From positions 1 through 25,852 of IMG/VR virus record IMGVR_UViG_3300047300_000223: DNA of 25,852 bases; one strand, 5' to 3'. The notes under the pieces were generated by a model, which worked only from the letters and a program-made list of their open reading frames with translations, was not told the DNA's origin and ran no database searches. The position numbers and the translations under genes were made by a program. How positions within the stretch are numbered: the stretch's first letter is position 1; each line of letters opens with the position of its first letter. This document shows positions 4,407 to 17,493 of this stretch, in pieces. Source of the stretch: a virus.

Positions 4407-6947
4407 TTATTTCACTCCCATCAGCCGCTTCACTTCAGCTTGTGCAGTGGGCGACAAGCTATCAAAAGCGCCGCCTTCATCGAAGAACGTATCGTCATGG
4501 ATAATCTTGTCGAATCCAGCACCGAGTTCTTTCATGGCGGTCGGCGCGATGTCTTGGTCAGTCAGATCGCCAAGCACAGTCGTCCTCACTCCAGACAGCC
4601 CAAGGTTTGTTGTAGTCCCCATGCGCTCTTGCTCAGGGTCTACGCCAGAGCCACGGATCACATATCGAGCCGAGAAGGCGTCAGCGTCTTCTGCGCTAAT
4701 TTTGCCGTCCTTATAAAGCTGCAAAATCTTCTCTGGAGTTCCGTGAACAGTATCAAGGTAAGCGTTCATTGCTGCACGGGTGTCTTCGCGCAGGATCGCT
4801 GGATCGCCTGTCACATCAAGTGCGCCAAACTGTGACTCCAATTTTGCGCCTTCCGCGTCAGACACACTACCGAGCGCCCCGCCTGTTGGGCTTGCGAGAC
4901 GCATGGCCGTGAGGTTATCCAGAGATGTTAGACTCCTGATAGTCTTGACGCGGCTTTTGACTTCTGAAGCGTCAGTGCGCGGAACAAGACCAGTTGCCAT
5001 AATAGCAAGTCCTTCGCCCACACCTGTTTTCCAGTCAGCAGTTTTGTCGAGAACATCTTTGCCGTAGCGTAGGATGGTGTCAGCAGACAAAGTTTGGCGG
5101 ACTGCTCGCATTGTTTCTTTTTCTGCGTCAGCCTGTTTCGCTGCTTCGTCAGCGTTGGCTTTAGTTGCTGCTTCGCCGCCTTCGATGTTAATAATCTTTG
5201 GCGTCCCATCAGGATTGAGTACAATGTCTAGTTGACCAGTTTCAGGATTTGTTGCGCGAGCAAACATTTGCCCGTTTTCAACAAGGTTCTTTTCGGCATC
5301 AGCCCATGCTGACGGAACTACTTGCCCTGTGGAGCCAGTGTTAACTTCGACATTTGTTTTTGGCCCGCCGGAACTCAAACGCCAAGCCAGAGCCTCGCCG
5401 TAGGACGTAAAGGGCTGCTTGGTGTCTGGATTGGTTGCTTTAGACGCAAACAAATCTTGCGCTTCGTTTTGCGCGTTGCTTTGCTCTGATCCAGCGGGCG
5501 CTGGCAAAGTTAGCACAGCAGTAGCTTCTGCGGGCGTGAACGGCTTCTTAGTGTCTGGGTTAATCGCGCCCCTTGCGACCAGTGCATCTGCGTTTTGCAT
5601 CTCGTTAGTGGGCGCTACAGCAGTATCTTTAGCGACAGGGAAGCGATCAGACGCCAGCTTATAGCCTTCCGCTACAGTCATATTGGGGTCGCTCAACAGC
5701 AGTTGCCCAGTAAGGCGCAGCACTGGGTCTTCGCTGGCGACATACTCCTCTGCGACAGCAGTCCGTTGCTCCGCCGCTGCTGCTGCCTCGTCTTCTTTTT
5801 TCCGTGCTTCGTCTGCGAGTTTTGACTGCTGACCAAGAGTCAAAACAGTGCTGGGGTCTACACCAGCATCAAGCGCCGCCGCTACTTCTGCGGTGCGTTT
5901 TTCATCGAAGCCAAAATCGCCAGCCATACCAAGCACCAGCCCACCAAGGGCTTTATTTGCTTGCTCAGTCTTCAGTCGCTGGGCGTCTGCTTGCTCAGTA
6001 AGCCGTTTGCGCTCGCGCTCGCTGAACACATCGTTGATGCTCATAACCCCAGAGGCGACTGCCCCTGCCATATCCGCATCACCAGTCTGGCTGTAGATAA
6101 GCGCTGCGCCCGCCCGCGCCCGATCACGCTCACGCATATCCAGCACGTTCTGACGGCGGCGGGCGTCAGCGTTGATTGCGATGTTTGACAGATCGACAGG
6201 ACGGCCTTGCGATATGGCCGACAATCCCTGACTTAGCCCGCGCCAAATGTCTTTGCGATGCGCCGCCTTCTCGTCTTCAGCAGCATTCGGATAGAGCGAC
6301 GACAGGATACCTTCGACAGTCTGCGGCAGAGCGCCACCAGCCGTTTGCGGCCCACCCATAGTGCTAACTGTCGTGTTTAGGTTAGGAGAGCCACCAAGCT
6401 GGAAGTGGACGCCATCCTTGAGCGTAGTCCAGTCGCCTCCCCATTGGAAATCAGTCAGGCCGCGTTCTGCGGCAACTTCTTTTGCGATGTCGGCAACAGG
6501 TTTATAGTCATCAAAATTGTAATTTGGTTTGCCATCCGGCCCAACAAGGTAAATGTCGGCAGCGTTACCAGTCAGATGGTGGCTGTTTTGCGTCTGCGAC
6601 TTGCCGGAAGCAACCATTTCTGCTTGCCGCTCTGCGCTGCGCTTGGTTTCCGCGATTTGCATATTGATGCCTTGGTCGCTTGCTCGCCGCTCCACTTCAG
6701 TCATAAAATCGCTTAGGCGAGGGTCCGCCCCAGCCAACCGCTCTTTTGATGTGGTGTTAAACTCTACGAGGGTCGGCTGCGGCACTGGGCCGCGCTGCAC
6801 AGCATCGGCAACTTGTACTCCCTGCCCTTTAAGAATGGGATTGGCAAGCTGGCTCATCACATTGCCGATGCTCGAAGCCTCGTCGCCCCGCGCGTTTGCA
6901 TAGTCCAGAAGGGCAGAGAGCGGATTGCGGCGAGTATTCATTGCCAT
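4407..6947 (-). CDS. Internal virion protein with N-terminal M15-type peptidase domain (846 aa)
   Basis: An 846-residue protein. Residues about 65-187 form a peptidase M15 (VanY / L-Ala-D-Glu or D-Ala-D-Ala peptidase) domain. The zinc motif SxHxxGxAxD is present as SHHLTGNAAD (H124, D131), and the late ligand region reads WGGDW then KDGVHFQLGG (D178, H181), the usual order of the family. The remaining roughly 650 residues are Ala/Glu/Lys-rich and helical, including repeated elements of the type NPDTK.PFT (near 465 and 508), and lack cysteine-rich or membrane segments. Combining a murein hydrolase with a long helical body fits a virion-carried ejection protein that opens peptidoglycan during DNA entry; the endolysin is encoded separately at 10819. 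The start at 6947 is chosen because AAAGGA lies 6 bases upstream; a second ATG two codons in is less well placed. It is followed directly by the 695-aa ejection-protein candidate. Confidence 0.78.
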   Translation of the reverse strand: MAMNTRRNPLSALLDYANARGDEASSIGNVMSQLANPILKGQGVQVADAVQRGPVPQPTLVEFNTTSKERLAGADPRLSDFMTEVERRASDQGINMQIAETKRSAERQAEMVASGKSQTQNSHHLTGNAADIYLVGPDGKPNYNFDDYKPVADIAKEVAAERGLTDFQWGGDWTTLKDGVHFQLGGSPNLNTTVSTMGGPQTAGGALPQTVEGILSSLYPNAAEDEKAAHRKDIWRGLSQGLSAISQGRPVDLSNIAINADARRRQNVLDMRERDRARAGAALIYSQTGDADMAGAVASGVMSINDVFSERERKRLTEQADAQRLKTEQANKALGGLVLGMAGDFGFDEKRTAEVAAALDAGVDPSTVLTLGQQSKLADEARKKEDEAAAAAEQRTAVAEEYVASEDPVLRLTGQLLLSDPNMTVAEGYKLASDRFPVAKDTAVAPTNEMQNADALVARGAINPDTKKPFTPAEATAVLTLPAPAGSEQSNAQNEAQDLFASKATNPDTKQPFTSYGEALAWRLSSGGPKTNVEVNTGSTGQVVPSAWADAEKNLVENGQMFARATNPETGQLDIVLNPDGTPKIINIEGGEAATKANADEAAKQADAEKETMRAVRQTLSADTILRYGKDVLDKTADWKTGVGEGLAIMATGLVPRTDASEVKSRVKTIRSLTSLDNLTAMRLASPTGGALGSVSDAEGAKLESQFGALDVTGDPAILREDTRAAMNAYLDTVHGTPEKILQLYKDGKISAEDADAFSARYVIRGSGVDPEQERMGTTTNLGLSGVRTTVLGDLTDQDIAPTAMKELGAGFDKIIHDDTFFDEGGAFDSLSPTAQAEVKRLMGVK

Positions 6948-8200: not shown

Positions 8201-8577
8201 GGTTCTATGCTCCTAACACAAGTTGTGAACTGCTCTGTCCAGCCGACTTTAGCCCATCCTCTACGACCTGATAGAGTCAGCTTGCAGCAACCAGCGTCAC
8301 GGGCAGCTTGTTCGAGTTGCGGAATCGTATCCAGCATCTCCGTCAGGTCGCCCCCTGCGGCAAACACATGATAGTGCTTTTGGCGCGGATACTCAACAAT
8401 TTCAGTGAGGGCGACACTATTCTTTGTAGACCATAGGCGAAGTCTGCCTTGAAGTACCATCATAGTCAGGTCGTCGAAGGTGTGCGTTCCGCCATTGTGG
8501 TCCATCGCCGCTTCCAATTCAGGGCGGAAATGATCCAAAATGTCGAGCAATTTCCTGACTTCAGATGCCACGCTCAT
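8197..8577 (-). CDS. Small conserved phage protein, possibly GNAT-like fold (126 aa)
   Basis: A 126-residue protein. ATG 8577 is chosen because it forms an ATGA overlap with the stop of the upstream gene; the frame extends to 8679 only inside that gene. Visible features are a helical N-terminus (EVRKLLDILDHFRPELEAAM), then YHVFAAGGDLTEMLDTIPQL, and a C-terminal block ARDAGCCKLTLSGRRGWAKV. The arrangement aGGdl.E....P.le..A...GC..i...GR.GW recurs in small phage proteins encoded next to tail genes and resembles the cofactor-binding half of acetyltransferase-like folds, but I see no full acetyl-CoA loop, so activity is doubtful. It lies between the jelly-roll-like protein and virion proteins, which argues for an assembly or accessory role. 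Confidence 0.6.
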   Translation of the reverse strand: MSVASEVRKLLDILDHFRPELEAAMDHNGGTHTFDDLTMMVLQGRLRLWSTKNSVALTEIVEYPRQKHYHVFAAGGDLTEMLDTIPQLEQAARDAGCCKLTLSGRRGWAKVGWTEQFTTCVRSIEP

Positions 8578-9275
8578 GTGACTACCCGATTGATTGCTAA
8601 GGTAGCAGCAGGAGACGCAGGGGCGTAAGCGGTGGCTGCGTGATTTTCTAGGAAGCCGCTGGTGCTGTCGGTAGCCCACATAGCTTCAAGATAATCTCCA
8701 GCAGCAAACTGAAAAATGCTGTCGCGGGCTACGACTGTTGTGCCGCCGTTGTTGTGCAGCGTTCCGACCATTGTACTGCCGCCTACATTGGTCCCGTTCA
8801 CTTTAGGCCAAAAGCGGAAATGGATCGTAGAAGCTGACGACGACGAAATCTGAGCCGTGAACGACAGTCGGTAAAGTCCTGCATTGGCAAAGACGATCCG
8901 AGTCAGGTTTGCAGGATCGCGGCTGATACCAGTAGCAAAGGCAGGGGCGTCGAATTGGATCGCGTAAGCGGTGTCGGCGGCGGCTGCGGTAACAGACGCC
9001 GCTCTACCAAATAGGGCGTTACCGATGCCGTAGTTGTAGTCAGCAACAGCCAGACGATGCCATGCGTTGTCCTTGGATACGACAGGGTATCCGTCCTGAT
9101 CCCACATCAACAGGCCGTCAGTCGTCGGCTTCTCGCCGCCAATCTGGCGTTGCATGAGGATAGTCTGCGGGTCTACAGAGCCGCTGGTGGCATCCCGCAG
9201 GAAATTGTGAACATCAGTTGCCCAGCGCGTAAGGTTGTCGCGGTTAGGCGATGGGACGATAAAGCTGCGTCTCAC
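8574..9275 (-). CDS. Virion protein with C-terminal jelly-roll (C1q/TNF-like) domain, 233 aa
   Basis: A 233-residue protein starting with GTG at 9275, which overlaps the stop of the tail-hub gene as GTGA and has GGAGG six bases upstream. The first 85 residues are a linker or anchor with RDNLTRWATDVHNFL and a domain ending in DNAWHRLAV. The last 140 residues are beta-rich: FANAGLYRLSFTAQISSSS, then FRFWPKVNGTNV, FQFAAGDYLEAMWA. The pattern of Gly-Leu-Tyr strand, hydrophobic alternation, and GDY-E strand is that of trimeric C1q/TNF-like jelly rolls found on phage decoration and fibre proteins. It is most likely an exposed virion component attached near the tail hub, perhaps binding a cell-surface glycan. 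The fold assignment is from pattern alone. Confidence 0.6.
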   Translation of the reverse strand: MRRSFIVPSPNRDNLTRWATDVHNFLRDATSGSVDPQTILMQRQIGGEKPTTDGLLMWDQDGYPVVSKDNAWHRLAVADYNYGIGNALFGRAASVTAAAADTAYAIQFDAPAFATGISRDPANLTRIVFANAGLYRLSFTAQISSSSASTIHFRFWPKVNGTNVGGSTMVGTLHNNGGTTVVARDSIFQFAAGDYLEAMWATDSTSGFLENHAATAYAPASPAATLAINRVVT

Positions 9276-10818: not shown

Positions 10819-11655
10819 CTAAGCCAAGAGTTTAGCCAATGTCTTAGGGCCGACGATGCCGTCCGCCGCCAAGCCGTTGGCTGCTTGCCACTTCTTGACT
10901 GCTGACTCAGTGCCGGGGCCAAACACGCCGTCATCTTCAAGGCCCAGTTCGGCCTGAAGGCGTTTCACGTTTTCGCCCGTCGATCCTTTTTTCAGGACTC
11001 CGGGAATGGCGGCGGCGCTGGTAATCGGTGCAGGAGTAGCGCCTCCCAACACTTTCAGGGCGTCCTCGTAGTGCTTGCGGCGATCTTCAAGGCCAATGGT
11101 TCCGCCATTGACCAGCTTGGTCATCTTTACGATGTCGCCTTCATCACAGGCGATGTTAATCTTACGGCTGTTCCAGTACCAGCAAGCGGACTCGAGTGCG
11201 CCCTTTTTGGTTTGGACGTAGTCGATGACTTGTTCAGGCGACATTCCTACACTTTTTCCAAAAGCAGTAGTATTGTCACGCCCGGTCAACTGGATGACCC
11301 CTCTGCCTCTGAACTTGAAGCCATCCCCAGACGCCGTATCCCCATTGCCAAGACGATTGGCGTAAATGACATTTGCGATTTTCTCCGGCTGTTTTGCGTA
11401 GTCAGCAGCATTCCGCCCTGCCTTCGAGAAGTATTTGGAAAACAGTTTTTCCAAAGTTTCTGCCCGATAATTGAGGTTTTCAGACAGGACAGTGAAGTTC
11501 ATGGACTCATGGCCGCACTGAGCGAAGAAGCCAGCAATGCGGTTGGCCGTATTGATGTCGTACTTGGGCAAAATTTCCAAGGCAGCGTCTGCCCAAGCGG
11601 CAGCGTCAGCATTGCCGTGCAGAATGTGGATAATGTGGTCCTTAGTCAGGTTCAT
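10819..11655 (-). CDS. Endolysin: GH19-type lysozyme/chitinase domain plus PG_binding_1 domain (278 aa)
   Basis: A 278-residue protein. Residues 1-205 match GH19-family phage lysozymes: FFAQCGHES with catalytic acid E50, SENLNY with second acid E59, KFRGRGVIQLTGR at 114-126, and ESACWYW near 155. Residues about 222-277 form a peptidoglycan-binding-1 domain (LKKGSTGENVKRLQ, DDGVFGPGTESAVKKWQ, DGIVGPKTLAKLL). A short Pro/Ala/Thr linker joins them. It hydrolyses the murein glycan strand at the end of infection. There is no signal peptide or signal-anchor, so release must depend on a holin; the two-membrane-segment protein at 11828 is the candidate. ATG 11655 overlaps the upstream 59-aa gene stop (ATGA). 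Enzyme class is confident; whether it cuts as muramidase or with other specificity is not decided by sequence. Confidence 0.9.
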   Translation of the reverse strand: MNLTKDHIIHILHGNADAAAWADAALEILPKYDINTANRIAGFFAQCGHESMNFTVLSENLNYRAETLEKLFSKYFSKAGRNAADYAKQPEKIANVIYANRLGNGDTASGDGFKFRGRGVIQLTGRDNTTAFGKSVGMSPEQVIDYVQTKKGALESACWYWNSRKINIACDEGDIVKMTKLVNGGTIGLEDRRKHYEDALKVLGGATPAPITSAAAIPGVLKKGSTGENVKRLQAELGLEDDGVFGPGTESAVKKWQAANGLAADGIVGPKTLAKLLA

Positions 11656-11831
11656 TTCTTCTTCCCCGCACCCTTGACCACAGCACCAAGTAGGTCGCCT
11701 ACATTGCCAGTGGTGGCAATCTTGATGGCGTCCTCCACTGGATCAGGCAGATCAACCTTATCCAGCACAGCATCGACAGCCTTTTCTTTCAGCTTGCGCC
11801 CCACCAGAGCGCCTACAAGTCTACCGATCAT
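11652..11831 (-). CDS. Small basic protein between holin-like gene and endolysin (59 aa)
   Basis: A 59-residue frame, joined to both neighbours by ATGA overlaps: its ATG at 11831 overlaps the stop of the 88-aa membrane protein and its TGA overlaps the endolysin start. It reads MIGRLVGALVGRKLKEKAVD, then a Pro/Asp-containing centre (DLPDPVEDAIKIATT), GNVGDLLGAVVKG, ending AGKKK. The N-terminus is an amphipathic Gly/Leu/Val helix with basic residues, which could lie on a membrane surface, but it is not long enough for a standard transmembrane span. I do not recognise a family. Its place between holin candidate and endolysin suggests a lysis-related or membrane-associated role. Confidence 0.7.
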   Translation of the reverse strand: MIGRLVGALVGRKLKEKAVDAVLDKVDLPDPVEDAIKIATTGNVGDLLGAVVKGAGKKK

Positions 11832-12094
11832 TCTGATGGCCCTTCTTCTGAAGTCTTGTTGCGGTTGTTTCCTGCCGCCATGACGCCACCGAGCGCCCCG
11901 ACGATGAAGGAGGCAATGGGAGTCAGGAGTTCGAAGAACTTGCGGTCGTTTTCACTACTTTCGCCCATTGGCTGCGTCACGAAGACCAGCGAATACAAAA
12001 TGACGAAAATCGTGCCGCCGAGGATGACAGTCAGCGCCACGCCAATGAAGTAGCGCAGCTTCGCTTCCATTTCGTCAGGATCAGGTTTACCCAT
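11828..12094 (-). CDS. Putative holin, two transmembrane segments (88 aa)
   Basis: An 88-residue protein with a charged N-terminus (MGKPDPDEMEAKLR), a long hydrophobic segment at about 14-39 (YFIGVALTVILGGTIFVILY), a short charged loop with SSENDRKFFE, and a second segment at about 57-73 (PIASFIVGALGGVMAAG), ending in a polar tail. Two segments with both ends polar fit a class II-type holin topology. Small proteins of this type are commonly encoded near the endolysin in marine phages; two genes downstream lies the GH19 enzyme. GGAGG precedes ATG 12094 by five bases, and the gene overlaps the preceding 62-aa gene by 8 bases. Function as holin is inferred from topology and neighbours; no diagnostic holin motif exists. 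Confidence 0.6.
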   Translation of the reverse strand: MGKPDPDEMEAKLRYFIGVALTVILGGTIFVILYSLVFVTQPMGESSENDRKFFELLTPIASFIVGALGGVMAAGNNRNKTSEEGPSE

Positions 12095-12275
12095 TTATTC
12101 CTCCAGTCAGGTCTTCAGGACATTGTTTTGTAGCCGTACAAATTGGTGGCTGGCATTCTGGTAGCGCCCACTTGTTCGGGTCTTGGCATGGATAGCGATA
12201 GAAGCCGTCTTTGGATAAGACGAATATGGCAATGATGGCAGAAGCGAAGGCCAGCCAAATCAGTCGTTCTTTCAT
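12087..12275 (-). CDS. Small membrane-anchored protein with four cysteines (62 aa)
   Basis: A 62-residue protein. ATG 12275 is chosen because GAGGG lies directly upstream and it leaves a 7-base gap after the 143-aa gene; a longer frame back to 12356 would overlap that gene. Residues 1-22 (MKERLIWLAFASAIIAIFVL) form one N-terminal membrane segment with positive residues before it, so the C-terminus should face the periplasm. That part contains FYRYPCQDPNKWALPEC and ICTATKQCPEDL, four cysteines in C-x10-C-x4-C-x5-C spacing, probably disulfide-bonded. I recall similar FYRYPCQDP proteins in marine phages, without known function. Its place next to the holin candidate suggests a role in the envelope during lysis. 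Confidence 0.65.
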   Translation of the reverse strand: MKERLIWLAFASAIIAIFVLSKDGFYRYPCQDPNKWALPECQPPICTATKQCPEDLTGGING

Positions 12276-12282
12276 GTCGCCC

Positions 12283-12714
12283 TCACTGGATTGGGTTCTT
12301 TGACAGGTCGTCCATCGCCTTCCACAGGTCTTCGATGTCGCGGTCGTATGTGTCAAGTTTATCTTTCAGACCAGCCGTGATGGCGTCTGACTTTTCCACA
12401 GAGGACCGCAAGTCAAGAAGTTGCTTTTGCTGCTCTAGGATGGTCTGCATCTGCGTTCCGATGGACGACAGTTTGGGCGCAAGGCCACGAACATCGTTGT
12501 CTTGGATGGCCTGTTCGAGCGTCTGGACGCGGCTTTCCATATCCGTGATGGCGTTGACGCTTTCCTCGACCGCCCAGAAGCGGTTCACAGTGTCGTAGGC
12601 ATAGTAGATGCCGCCCGACAAGCCGGAAAGGACTGGTAAGGCTACAGCCAGATACCAGCCCTTAAAGTCAAAGCCCCCAATTTTAATGGAGGTTCCGCTG
12701 TCTTCGTCACTCAC
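12283..12714 (-). CDS. Membrane-anchored coiled-coil protein, possible inner-membrane spanin-like (143 aa)
   Basis: A 143-residue protein starting with GTG 12714, which overlaps the upstream stop as GTGA. Residues 1-19 are polar; about 20-42 (WYLAVALPVLSGLSGGIYYA) is a single membrane segment; the rest is a charged helix with heptad-like hydrophobic spacing (VNAITDMESRVQTLEQAI, LSSIGTQMQTILEQQKQLL, LDTYDRDIEDLWKAMDDL). N-in, C-out topology with a long periplasmic coiled coil is the plan of i-spanins (Rz-like). A lipoprotein gene lies upstream at 14025, but it is not nested in this gene as Rz1 is in Rz. Alternatives are a membrane-bound accessory of adsorption or superinfection control. No catalytic motif is seen. 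Confidence 0.6.
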   Translation of the reverse strand: MSDEDSGTSIKIGGFDFKGWYLAVALPVLSGLSGGIYYAYDTVNRFWAVEESVNAITDMESRVQTLEQAIQDNDVRGLAPKLSSIGTQMQTILEQQKQLLDLRSSVEKSDAITAGLKDKLDTYDRDIEDLWKAMDDLSKNPIQ

Positions 12715-13472
12715 GAGCCGTATCCTGCGCTATAGATGTCTTCAGCACTGACGCCATTGCCAGCCATAAAGCCCATAAAGCCGATTCCAAACGTGTCTCC
12801 TGCGGCGACATTCAGGATGTCAGCAGTAGCACTATAGGCAGCAAAGCCGTTGTAGAGGTTTACGTTTGCGTTGGCTGCGTAGTTGTCCACAGTAGACGTC
12901 AGCATCGTGTTGTTGGCAGCAGCGAGGAACGCGCCAGCTTCACGAGCATACTCCTGCACCGAGGCCAAAGCGTTGTTGTAGTTGCCCTGCTCTGCGTCCG
13001 TTACAGCCAGTTCCGGCGAATTTTCCAGCATGGCTTGCATGGCTTGCTGCTCAGGCACAGTGTCGGCTGCTGCGGCCATGTCTGCGACTGCTGCGGCGGT
13101 CGCCAGCACCAGCGTAGCATCGACAAGGTTGTCCACGGAGGCGCTCAGGTTCTGCATGGCTTCTTCGTGCTTGTCCATGAACAGTTCGTGCGAGCCATAG
13201 TAGTTGGCGTCGATGACTGCTTGAATAGCGTTGTTGTAGCTGTTCTGCATGGAGTCAGAAATAGAGGCTGTCTGCATGACCCCGGTATTCAGAATATCGC
13301 CGCTTCCAGCGGCTTGCACGGCCCCAGCAGTCAGGATTTGCGAGGCGCTAATCTGACTTAGAATCGCTTGGGCTGACTGGTTTAGGTTGGTCATCGTTTG
13401 CTCCGCCAGCACCTGTGTTGCGGCGGAAACGCTCAGAAAGGCTAGGGCCAGTGTTTTGGTCAACTTCAACAT
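12711..13472 (-). CDS. Sec-exported, Ala/Asn/Gln-rich protein of unknown function (253 aa)
   Basis: A 253-residue protein with a textbook Sec signal peptide: MLKLTK, hydrophobic ALAFLSVSA, then a cleavage-like site near QVLAEQ (about residue 23-24). ATG 13472 has AGAGGA eight bases upstream, which supports this start even though it lies 125 bases inside the preceding gene. The mature part is Ala/Asn/Gln/Met-rich, acidic, without cysteine or Lys-rich regions, and contains Asn/Tyr clusters (SYNNAIQAVIDANYYGSHE, GNYNNALASVQEYA, YAANANVNLYNGFAAYS) and an Ala-rich centre. It ends GVSAEDIYSAGYGS. It has no known domain that I recognise. Export implies action in periplasm, outer membrane or outside the infected cell, unlike the virion genes around it. 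It could also be a virion part assembled after export, but that would be unusual. Confidence 0.68.
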   Translation of the reverse strand: MLKLTKTLALAFLSVSAATQVLAEQTMTNLNQSAQAILSQISASQILTAGAVQAAGSGDILNTGVMQTASISDSMQNSYNNAIQAVIDANYYGSHELFMDKHEEAMQNLSASVDNLVDATLVLATAAAVADMAAAADTVPEQQAMQAMLENSPELAVTDAEQGNYNNALASVQEYAREAGAFLAAANNTMLTSTVDNYAANANVNLYNGFAAYSATADILNVAAGDTFGIGFMGFMAGNGVSAEDIYSAGYGS

Positions 13473-14082
13473 CGGGCAGTTCCTCTCCCATCATCAAAAA
13501 GGTGTCCCAGAAAGTCTGGTCGTCGGCGTATCCTACCACATAAATGAAGGGCTGGGAACGCATTGTGATGTAGGCGTCCCTGCCCATCATCAGCTTACCA
13601 GCAGCGATGGAGTAGACAGGGCAGGGTGTTGATGCGAGAGCCATTGCTTTGAAGATGGCAGGGTTGCCGCACATGAGAGAAATGCCGCTGACTTGAAGGC
13701 CCAGACCGCCCGTGTCCTGTGGTGTGCCAAGCAGTCGGCTGTCTTTCCTACGATTGCACTCTGTATCTTGGATCATCTTGCCGTCAGCTTTGCCAAAAAT
13801 GCTGATCTGGAAGGCTTGCTGGATCGGAATGAGACAGGAATCATTACCGCCGCCGCCCATGACTGTAGGGGCAGCGGCAGTCGGTACAGGCTGACTGAAT
13901 GGTGCGCTGCCCGCGCCGTTGTAGTTTTTGGTTTCGTTGTTGGTGGGGTTGTTGCTGCCGACAGTGGAGTTGGTATTGCCGCTGTTGGTATTAAGATCGC
14001 CTGTGATCTGTGCTGCGGCAGGGCTTAGTAAAGCGAGCAGACTTCCCCAAGCGATGAGCGCACAGAAGTGTCGCCGCCACAC
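13348..14082 (-). CDS. Sec-exported cysteine-containing protein of unknown function (244 aa)
   Basis: The frame is open from 14214 to TAG at 13350. I choose GTG 14082: it gives a compact signal peptide (WRRH, then FCALIAWGSLLALLSPAAAQ) of about 22 residues and a 58-base overlap with the lipoprotein gene. The alternative ATG 14151, with AGAGGGGG seven bases upstream, adds an Arg-rich 23-residue extension that looks like an out-of-frame shadow. The mature protein starts with an Asn/Thr-rich stretch (DLNTNSGNTNSTVGSNNPTN), then a core with cysteines in GGNDSCLIP, DTECNRRKD, SLMCGNPA and STPCPVYS, and ends in a Pro/Ser/Asp-rich tail. I recall similar Asn-rich signal-peptide proteins with an ECNRR block in other aquatic phages; their function is unknown. 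The 3' end overlaps the 253-aa gene by 125 bases. The four cysteines suggest two disulfides in the periplasm. Confidence 0.66.
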   Translation of the reverse strand: MWRRHFCALIAWGSLLALLSPAAAQITGDLNTNSGNTNSTVGSNNPTNNETKNYNGAGSAPFSQPVPTAAAPTVMGGGGNDSCLIPIQQAFQISIFGKADGKMIQDTECNRRKDSRLLGTPQDTGGLGLQVSGISLMCGNPAIFKAMALASTPCPVYSIAAGKLMMGRDAYITMRSQPFIYVVGYADDQTFWDTFLMMGEELPDVEVDQNTGPSLSERFRRNTGAGGANDDQPKPVSPSDSKSD

Positions 14083-14246
14083 ATCAAGGCATCGCCAGCC
14101 TCGAACTGTCCCATGTAGTAGAGCGTTTGGGCGTTCTGCCTGATTTCGCATTGGGTATCCCCCTCTGGACAAGCAGTCGTGTAAGCGATTGATGTAACAG
14201 CGATAGGGCCGCATGAGGCAAGTAGCAAAAGTGGAAGAAACTTCAC
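14025..14246 (-). CDS. Small lipoprotein (73 aa), possible o-spanin
   Basis: A 73-residue protein starting with GTG 14246 (GTGA overlap with the upstream stop). MKFLPLLLLASC is a clear lipoprotein signal with lipobox LASC, so Cys12 should be lipidated; the next residue is Gly, which allows outer-membrane sorting (no +2 Asp). The mature part of about 62 residues has four more cysteines (ACPEGDTQC, LMC, EVC) and a short helix RQNAQTLYYMGQFEAGDAL. A small lipoprotein coupled to a membrane coiled-coil protein is the arrangement of two-component spanins, but typical o-spanins are Pro-rich whereas this one is Cys-rich. It may instead be an outer-membrane-inserted phage lipoprotein that blocks superinfection, as known for T5 Llp. 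Start and lipobox are clear; role is inferred. Confidence 0.68.
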   Translation of the reverse strand: MKFLPLLLLASCGPIAVTSIAYTTACPEGDTQCEIRQNAQTLYYMGQFEAGDALMCGGDTSVRSSLGEVCSLY

Positions 14247-14476
14247 TTACGCAGCACCCCTTCGATTGTGTCTAACTTTTCGAAGATGCGGCGAAAGTTT
14301 TCCCGCATCTCTTTAAATTCTTTGTCGTGGGCTTCTTTGTTCGCCTCGTGGACTGCTTGTAGCACGGCGAGTTGTGTCGCATGACTTTGCTGAGTGCGGT
14401 ACATCATCAGCACACCAGCGGCGATTGGGGCTACGATCCACTGCATGGCAGTATTTATGAGGTCCAAAAATTCCAT
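14243..14476 (-). CDS. Membrane-anchored coiled-coil protein (77 aa)
   Basis: A 77-residue protein. Residues about 6-26 (LINTAMQWIVAPIAAGVLMM) form one membrane segment; the following 50 residues are a charged helix (ANKEAHDKEFKEMRENFRRI, then LDTIEGVLRK) with coiled-coil spacing. The N-terminus is short and acidic and positive charges follow the segment, so by the positive-inside rule the coiled coil would face the cytoplasm, the opposite of a normal i-spanin; XhlA-like holin accessory proteins share this plan in reverse order. ATG 14476 lies 2 bases after the TAA of the 52-aa gene with AAGGA in that stop region. The gene is coupled to the lipoprotein by a GTGA overlap. Possible roles are holin, holin accessory or spanin partner. 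Confidence 0.62.
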   Translation of the reverse strand: MEFLDLINTAMQWIVAPIAAGVLMMYRTQQSHATQLAVLQAVHEANKEAHDKEFKEMRENFRRIFEKLDTIEGVLRK

Positions 14477-15991: not shown

Positions 15992-16369
15992 TTACTCCGG
16001 CTGCGTGGGCCAAACGATGTCTACGGGGAAGCCTTCCTGCTGCGGAACATCCAGCAAGGCGCGACGATATGTGGCCCATGCAGCTTGTGCTTCTGCGGTA
16101 AGGTCAGCCCAGCGCAGGGGGTTGGAGACGATGGGGTCAACCACGTTAGAAAGGATGGTATCACGGGTTGCACGGACAATTTCAGCTTGTGCTGCGTCAG
16201 CTACTTCCTGCGTAGGTGGAACCCACTCAGAACCATTCCATGTGTGCAGGTGACTAGGACGGATTGGAACTTCAACAGTGCCTTCAGGATACGCTGCAAG
16301 ATGTTCGTCAGTGGGTGTAGAGATGGTCTGCCAGTAGCCGTCTGTCGGGTGATAAAAACCGTGTTCCAT
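15992..16369 (-). CDS. Tail fibre assembly chaperone-like protein (125 aa)
   Basis: A 125-residue protein. ATG 16369 is chosen because it forms a TAATG overlap with the fibre gene; the frame continues to 16426 only inside that gene. The N-terminus EHGFYHPTDGYWQTISTPTD and EYP-like PEGTVEVPIRPSHLH plus WNGSEWVPP match the small domain that precedes assembly regions in phage fibre chaperones. The C-terminus LTAEAQAAWATYRRALLDVP followed by QQEGFPVDIVWPTQP matches the YRqALlDvpqQ.GFP..i.WP ending of phage tail fibre assembly or DUF4376/XkdW-type proteins. These proteins help fold or attach the fibre encoded next to them. Its place directly after the 374-aa fibre supports that partner. It may stay in the virion or act only in assembly. 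Confidence 0.72.
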   Translation of the reverse strand: MEHGFYHPTDGYWQTISTPTDEHLAAYPEGTVEVPIRPSHLHTWNGSEWVPPTQEVADAAQAEIVRATRDTILSNVVDPIVSNPLRWADLTAEAQAAWATYRRALLDVPQQEGFPVDIVWPTQPE

Positions 16370-17493
16370 TATGCTTGTCCCTCTGTCCAAACAGAAATGA
16401 CGGTTCCTGTCACCCGGTAATACCATGAGGGTGGGACAAGATACGTCATATTTGAAGCCGCCACGTTCATGGATATACCTGTTATACCTAAGCCGGACGT
16501 TGACCCTAGCAAAAAAGTTTGCCCATTGTTAGACATGGAAACTGATACTAAAAGCCACCCGCTGGTGGTGTTTTGGTATGTTGTGGCTGTTGCCCTGCTA
16601 CCAATTTTGCTTGAAACAACAGTTGATCCGAGCGCCGATGAAGTCCACGAAGGCGATGCACCTGACCCACCAGAGGTAAGCACCTGACCGGACTTGCCGT
16701 AGTTAGCGCCGCCGATGCCAATTTGACCTAACTGAGCTACACGAAGTCTTTCAATTTGGTTTGCGTAAAAGCGCAAAGACTCAAAACCAGACAAAGAAAC
16801 AACCGAGACTTCTGGCGCACCCAAACCATAGTTTGGAATTGAATTGGTTACCCCAGATGGAGTAAAGTTTGAAGAGTCTGACGTTAAAGCATATCCTGTT
16901 GAACTATATGTTTTTCCAAATATTGCTAGGTTTCCATAAGTGCTAGGAGAACTCGTCCCAATCCCTACGTTGCCGGAGGCGTCGATGCGCATCCGTTCTG
17001 TGGCACTTGTAAAAAACGCCATTGCAGTAGCTTCATAGTTGATCAGCACAGCTTCTTCGCTATCATTTATGCCAATCAAGAAACCATCTGTAATGGTAGT
17101 GCCAGTAGTCGAGTTTTGAAAGTTTGCGTAAACGCCCACGCCTTGAGCGTTGTATGCCTTATAGGCAACCATGTCTGCGGTGGTAAACGTGTTTACTTGC
17201 GAGTGGACCTTGGCAAGAGGCGAACTCGTACCAATCCCTACGCTGCCAGTAGCGGTAACCACAAACGGGGTGGTGTCCGGGTTTGCGCTATCTTCAACGA
17301 CCAAGGCATTGCCAGCACCAATCTGCGTGATCGTGACGGCGGCTACCGCAGAGTTGGACGCAACAGTCACGTTGCCAGTCAGTGCGGGCGAGGCCAACTC
17401 AGCCTTGTCAGTGTTCAGATTGGTGAAGTTGGCATCCACCTCGTTATGAGTGAGAGGGCTACCTTTTCCAGCGCGTGTAACGATAGTAGCCAT
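16369..17493 (-). CDS. Tail fibre with GIGTSSP repeats (374 aa)
   Basis: A 374-residue fibre. It begins MATIVTRAGKGSPLTHNEVD and ANFTNLNTDKAEL, a common N-terminal attachment segment of phage fibres. Residues 80-200 contain two units of the type (A/T)xGxVGIGTSSP (GSVGIGTSSP near 87, GNVGIGTSSP near 175) and a decayed third (GQIGIGGANYG near 256), the usual beta-turn repeat of marine phage fibres; ATERMRIDASGNVGIG is a typical linker. The C-terminal 100 residues are beta-rich without repeats (SGWLLVSVSMSNNGQTFLLG, then SWYYRVTGTVISVW) and probably form the receptor-binding tip. It precedes the assembly chaperone gene. DNA under the repeat is also nearly duplicated (see the repeat entry), suggesting recombination within the gene. 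Confidence 0.8.
   Translation of the reverse strand: MATIVTRAGKGSPLTHNEVDANFTNLNTDKAELASPALTGNVTVASNSAVAAVTITQIGAGNALVVEDSANPDTTPFVVTATGSVGIGTSSPLAKVHSQVNTFTTADMVAYKAYNAQGVGVYANFQNSTTGTTITDGFLIGINDSEEAVLINYEATAMAFFTSATERMRIDASGNVGIGTSSPSTYGNLAIFGKTYSSTGYALTSDSSNFTPSGVTNSIPNYGLGAPEVSVVSLSGFESLRFYANQIERLRVAQLGQIGIGGANYGKSGQVLTSGGSGASPSWTSSALGSTVVSSKIGSRATATTYQNTTSGWLLVSVSMSNNGQTFLLGSTSGLGITGISMNVAASNMTYLVPPSWYYRVTGTVISVWTEGQA
16949..17247. repeat. Pair of near-identical 26-base direct repeats within the tail fibre gene
   Basis: Bases 16949-16974 and 17222-17247 differ at only two of 26 positions; both begin gaactcgt and contain ccaatccctacg on the + strand. They encode the VGIGTSSP blocks of the fibre. 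Synonymous-site identity between the two copies is higher than expected from protein repetition alone, which points to recent duplication or gene conversion. Repeats like this let fibres gain or lose units by recombination. The span given covers both copies and the region between them. Confidence 0.75.

Follow-up and report, generated by a model that had tools for sequence, protein, structure and literature searches.

The window analyzed here is the whole 25,852-nt stretch of the IMG/VR virus record IMGVR_UViG_3300047300_000223. Three consecutive genes on its minus strand encode proteins with predicted export signals. The first, at 14025–14246, starts with GTG and encodes a 73-aa lipoprotein whose lipobox, L-A-S-C, places the lipid-bearing cysteine at Cys12. 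The second, at 13348–14082, also has a GTG start and encodes a 244-aa protein (hereafter the Cys protein) that matches PHROG_20531 and consists of a signal peptide, a spacer rich in N, T, S and G, a four-cysteine domain and a disordered tail. The third, at 12711–13472, has an ATG start and a VLA|E motif; its 253-aa product, P1, is an elongated alpha-helical protein predicted to be Sec-exported. The lipoprotein and Cys genes share 58 nt (14025–14082), and the Cys and P1 genes share 125 nt (13348–13472), all on the minus strand. The original prediction had placed the three ORFs and both overlaps correctly, and its remark that the overlapped DNA is the part encoding signal peptides also holds: the second overlap spans the P1 signal peptide, and the first spans most of that of the Cys protein.

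Variable sites were counted by codon position in eight close loci, using the stretch unique to each gene. The counts at positions 1/2/3 were 10/5/41 for the lipoprotein, 36/21/154 for the Cys gene and 50/35/186 for P1. The variable sites thus concentrate at third codon positions in every gene's own frame, which supports coding in all three frames. In the same loci divergence was lowest in the P1/Cys overlap (0.128, against 0.169 and 0.191), which is the expectation for DNA that codes twice. The 244-aa frame showed no third-position bias 5' of 14082 (41/10/5). Translation therefore likely begins at GTG 14082, with the signal peptide at the N-terminus of the protein. The alternative start ATG 14151, which the original prediction had allowed and which would give a 127-base overlap, is disfavoured by this variation, the frame being unconstrained upstream of 14082.

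Most overlaps among the roughly 30 late genes of the window measure 11 bases or less, and few are long. Other long same-strand overlaps, between late ORFs without an assigned function, lie at 8574–8679 (106 bases) and 16369–16426 (58 bases). The Cys/P1 overlap was present with an identical frame relation (2 mod 3) in all 71 loci compared, and its length was 62–179 nt in 70 of them, the exception being a truncated outlier with 302 nt. With length and frame relation kept in 71 loci, the sequences indicate that the overlap is not due to chance. The tail of one protein and the signal peptide of the next would thus be encoded by the same DNA in a long, conserved overlap.

The N-terminus of the Cys protein has an n-region with WRR, a hydrophobic core and the cleavage motif AAA|Q. 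Scored with our own heuristic rather than SignalP, 188 of 220 Cys ORFs and 76 of 77 ORFs of the 253-aa family begin in a signal-peptide-like manner, compared with 181 of 1025 background ORFs. Among the Cys and P1 ORFs scored negative, several have an evident hydrophobic start that lacks Lys/Arg, and others are truncated or carry wrong starts. The LASC lipobox of the 73-aa protein is also kept in homologues, lipidation being predicted from the sequence. By this heuristic, the proposed run of three consecutive exported proteins is conserved, and the homologues are not the signal-peptide-free proteins that would have spoken against it. A hydrophobic C-terminal segment, possibly a membrane anchor, occurs in 17 of 221 Cys-domain homologues. 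An "SxSxRFR" motif in the tail of the Cys protein was left uninterpreted, as the DNA encoding it also encodes the P1 signal peptide, from which the motif might simply result.

The four-cysteine core of the 244-aa protein is encoded at 13603–13893 (minus strand) and contains C83, C109, C138 and C154. These cysteines are invariant within the pattern D..C.R...L..G......MC........CP. The lipoprotein carries what appears to be a short copy of the domain, with C26, C33, C56 and C70 following the lipid Cys12. The two align with a probability of 95.6% (hhalign, E 1.2e-8), and an HMM built from 47 lipoproteins matches large Cys ORFs with E down to 1e-10, with no direct match to the Cys protein of the window itself. 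On these profile comparisons, the 73-aa and 244-aa proteins have one four-cysteine domain in common. The domain had no relative in Pfam, NCBIfam or the PDB. The earlier statement that no domain can be recognized is therefore accurate for Pfam and NCBIfam and had missed the domain common to the two proteins. PHROG_20531, a family of unknown function, is matched by the 244-aa protein at E 2.2e-6 and by its relatives down to 7e-29; the lipoprotein of the window gave no match to it.

In the AF2 model of the 244-aa protein the core has a pLDDT of 80–97, and the spacer and tail ends fall below 50, i.e. they are disordered. The confident model of P1 (pLDDT 88.7, pTM 0.72) shows an elongated bundle of helices and a small sheet at the C-terminus. 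Neither protein matched a PDB fold at E<=0.001 or a PDB entry by sequence profile; a viral library gave P1 three matches, none bearing a named function.

The domain is encoded on more than 580 IMG/VR stretches. Homologues of the 244-aa protein occur in the roseophages CRP-207 and CRP-810, both of which also encode the lipoprotein without annotation, and in the unclassified Manatee Spring phage genome MW202675. The cysteine core alone matches the pelagiphages HTVC023P, HTVC115P, HTVC033P, HTVC202P, Mosig (T4-like) and Baldr, and the roseophage and pelagiphage cores agree in profile comparison (hhalign 99.1%, 9e-19). The homologues L101, L102 and L192 have spacers that exceed 150 residues and contain TN- or N-rich repeats; the repeats of the window protein are short (about 35 aa). 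The Cys gene was also seen in contigs binned to Marinimicrobia, Flavobacteriales, Actinomycetota or archaeal MAGs (L192–L200, L202, L207), which are probably misbinned phage contigs, several of them showing phage-type gene order.

An inspection of the neighboring genes, all on the minus strand, indicated a larger cassette. Directly downstream of P1, a gene at 12283–12714 encodes a 143-aa protein with a transmembrane segment and a coiled coil (TM/coil protein) that ends in an NP(L/I) motif, NPL in the window. It is followed at 12087–12275 by a 62-aa transmembrane protein with a Cys-rich tail, YPCQDP..W, whose start is most likely ATG 12275 rather than the TTG of the longest ORF. A stretch similar to this tail exists in the actinobacterial phage OQ999401. 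Next come an 88-aa holin-like protein with two transmembrane segments (11828–12094), which matches PHROG_25359 of unknown function (2.9e-13) and weakly a holin family (PHROG_9987, E 0.19), and a GH19-type endolysin with a peptidoglycan-binding domain (10819–11655; PHROG_181 endolysin, E 2.8e-71; PG_binding_1, 2.8e-14). The TM/coil genes of CRP-810 (L002:7219-7641) and CRP-207 (L003:3292-3873) are labelled "lysozyme" in GenBank, a name we do not adopt, as no lysozyme domain is detectable.

The order lipoprotein, Cys protein, P1, TM/coil protein is fixed. Starting from P1, we found the Cys gene directly upstream in 79 of 79 loci, the lipoprotein in 76 of 76 and the TM/coil gene directly downstream in 64 of 69, so the three-gene order suggested for a database search is strictly co-inherited. 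Loci seeded with the TM/coil protein, which were fetched by a single-protein query and belong mostly to one phage lineage, had Cys (70/70) and P1 (68/75) upstream, and downstream a holin-like gene (68/69) and, within 2.5 kb, a GH19 endolysin (69/69). Of the membrane proteins that the original prediction had drawn into the module, the one at 12283 is the TM/coil protein of the cassette, and the one at 12087 follows the TM/coil gene in 58 of 69 loci; the 77-aa transmembrane protein upstream of the cassette (14243–14476, minus strand) is inconsistently linked, occurring in only 7 of 40 loci. The cassette is conserved over hundreds of sea- and freshwater phages. We found no description of it in the literature, and the available parts of the papers on CRP-810, HMO-2011-type phages and HTVC027P contain no functional test of its genes.

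Pelagiphages including HTVC023P and Mosig retain both the Cys and the TM/coil gene, with a different exported protein in the middle. In place of P1, pelagiphages and many other contigs encode a larger exported and partly acidic protein; they have no lipoprotein, whereas the TM/coil protein is kept. The pelagiphage TM/coil protein is related to that of the window (hhalign 96.9%, 1.4e-10) and ends in NP(L/I/M) in 40 of 41 cases. The slot between the Cys and TM/coil genes in L088, L093, L101, L102, L192, L205 and L208 holds exported, partly acidic proteins of 500–950 aa, with no Pfam domain in those examined; their longest ORFs begin within the Cys gene.

CRP-207 and CRP-603 are both HMO-2011-type roseophages (PMC9038755). 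They have flanking genes in common (68% and 92% identity), between which a five-gene block of CRP-207 (lipoprotein, Cys, P1, TM/coil and gp72) corresponds to a single unrelated 114-aa TM/coil gene in CRP-603. One gene at the site of the cassette indicates that the cassette is optional and dispensable. Since the late region of CRP-603 has no other credible lipoprotein, this gene swap does not show the replacement of one spanin system by another. The cassette of CRP-207 is found close to the terminase genes, and no endolysin was identified next to it; this phage carries an integrase.

Within one alphaproteobacterial family (Hyphomonadaceae-type), 15 of the 60 genomes examined also encode the domain, in some as tandem pairs. 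In four such chromosomal loci (L234:4804-7704, L235:17-2908, L236:4705-6276, L237:3923-6376), one partner has the Cys domain behind repeats, which are collagen-like or of another kind, and the second partner additionally has an OmpA domain at its C-terminus (PF00691, E 1e-20 to 1e-25). Both share with the phage protein a signal peptide and a low-complexity or repeat spacer before the same four-cysteine domain; the cellular proteins carry PF01391 and/or PF00691, whereas the phage proteins lack both domains and are linked with the P1 and TM/coil genes. The fusions to a peptidoglycan-binding OmpA domain place the domain at the peptidoglycan/outer-membrane layer. As the domain architecture is richer in cells, we judge the cassette to be a transferable envelope cassette of probable host origin. 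An OmpA identity of the phage protein itself was rejected because PF00691 occurs neither in the window protein nor in CRP-810 gp53 ("OmpA family protein"), whose GenBank name probably stems from the cellular fusions.

The signal peptides, co-inheritance, lysis-gene neighbors and OmpA-fused homologues are all consistent with the envelope-directed module of the original prediction, without separating the functions it offered. The cassette seems to act on the host cell envelope, probably around cell burst. Our tentative preference is that it aids the opening or detachment of the outer envelope at lysis as a multi-protein, spanin-like system without spanin homology. The cassette proteins would meet in the periplasm as one assembly made late in infection. 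At the outer membrane the lipoprotein would display its Cys domain; in the 244-aa protein the domain would sit on a flexible spacer, and the elongated helical P1 could form a bridge. The TM/coil protein would serve as the inner-membrane anchor of the complex by way of its coiled coil, with the C-terminal NPL as a putative docking motif.

Two-component spanins (Rz/Rz1, PHROG_739) likewise combine an outer-membrane lipoprotein bearing periplasmic cysteines with an inner-membrane coiled-coil protein, encoded by late genes near the endolysin. Lipoproteins are rare in phages, and i- and o-spanin genes are embedded, overlapping or closely adjacent, with a published extreme of about 1 kb (PMC6139136). 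In the cassette, by contrast, 1.3 kb and two genes for exported proteins separate the lipoprotein gene from the TM/coil gene, the TM/coil protein has no cysteine, and the lipoprotein is absent from the pelagiphage versions. The lipobox lipoprotein is shared with spanins, and the gene spacing and sequence are not. The net charge of the flanks of the TM segment, averaged over 69 proteins (-0.2 N-terminal, -1.3 C-terminal), leans weakly towards N-in. Against the Rz-like PHROG_739 the window TM/coil protein scored E 0.016, and 4 of 47 members reached E<=0.01, fewer than with an SbcC coiled-coil profile. Searching whole records with PHROG_739 was uninformative, as 9 of 14 control genomes matched and the profile thus picks up coiled coils generally. 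No spanin was found in about 13% of the genomes analyzed in PMC6139136, many of them from marine phages, which makes an alternative system plausible.

The location of the cassette directly before holin-like and endolysin genes in this lineage supports a role at lysis. On the other hand, the isolated lytic phage CRP-603 has no cassette, pelagiphage-type cassettes have no lipoprotein, the CRP-207 cassette is not beside an identified endolysin, and the linkage to the endolysin may reflect mere descent. We place disruption at lysis narrowly ahead of an envelope-modifying "moron" role, a somewhat less probable explanation in which altered outer layers block adsorption or injection by other phages or the envelope is strengthened during infection. 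Lambda lom and bor are known precedents of envelope genes near tail-fibre and lysis genes. They too are optional and exported; here the cassette is multi-gene and strictly co-inherited, and it is not known to be homologous to them. The clean presence in CRP-207 and absence in CRP-603 of a dispensable cassette of predicted exported proteins fits superinfection exclusion about as well as lysis, and the four-cysteine domain resembles host envelope proteins. Moreover, CRP-207 has an integrase, and CRP-810 integrates into its host (PMC11288001). Against such a role stand the close coupling of the cassette, in this lineage, to endolysin and holin-like genes of the late operon and the related pelagiphage HTVC027P, which is described as obligately lytic, though itself without a Cys-domain match.

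It is unlikely that the N/T-rich phage repeats, or the collagen-like host repeats, polymerise outside the cell as a surface fibre or adhesin for aggregation or "sibling capture". The long TN-repeat spacers of L101, L102 and L192 and the collagen repeats of cellular homologues would suit a fibre, and curli-type modules reported in other pelagiphages (PMC9599517, PMC7029224), for which sibling capture has been proposed, provide a precedent of exported N-rich-repeat proteins in marine alphaproteobacterial phages. However, CsgG, the only curli component searched for, was found in none of the 48 Cys-domain-bearing virus records searched (0/38 IMG/VR, 0/10 named phages; control genomes positive), and a curli module was rejected. 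The cassette also has no outer-membrane pore, the repeats of the window protein are short, and the OmpA fusion suggests a periplasmic site. The location of the genes between tail-fibre and other late genes might indicate virion parts, such as tail-tip or ejection proteins that merely start with hydrophobic segments. This appears very improbable given the lipobox, the retention of classical cleavable signal peptides in even very diverged homologues, the OmpA-bearing cellular homologues and the dispensability of the cassette in HMO-2011-type phages.

SAR11 and Roseobacter rank with the most abundant marine bacteria. Their phages carry the cassette, yet every protein of it is either listed as "hypothetical" or wrongly named ("lysozyme", "OmpA"). 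In many marine phages no means of opening the outer membrane has been recognized, for which disruption at lysis by the cassette would be a concrete, testable candidate. A widespread marine and freshwater system of outer-envelope disruption that does the work of spanins, with a domain taken from host OmpA-linked proteins, is a more doubtful extension; if true, spanin work would be done in phages thought to lack spanins. Elsewhere in the window, an 846-aa late protein (4407–6947) contains an M15 peptidase domain (PF13539) and may be a second peptidoglycan hydrolase, perhaps virion-borne.
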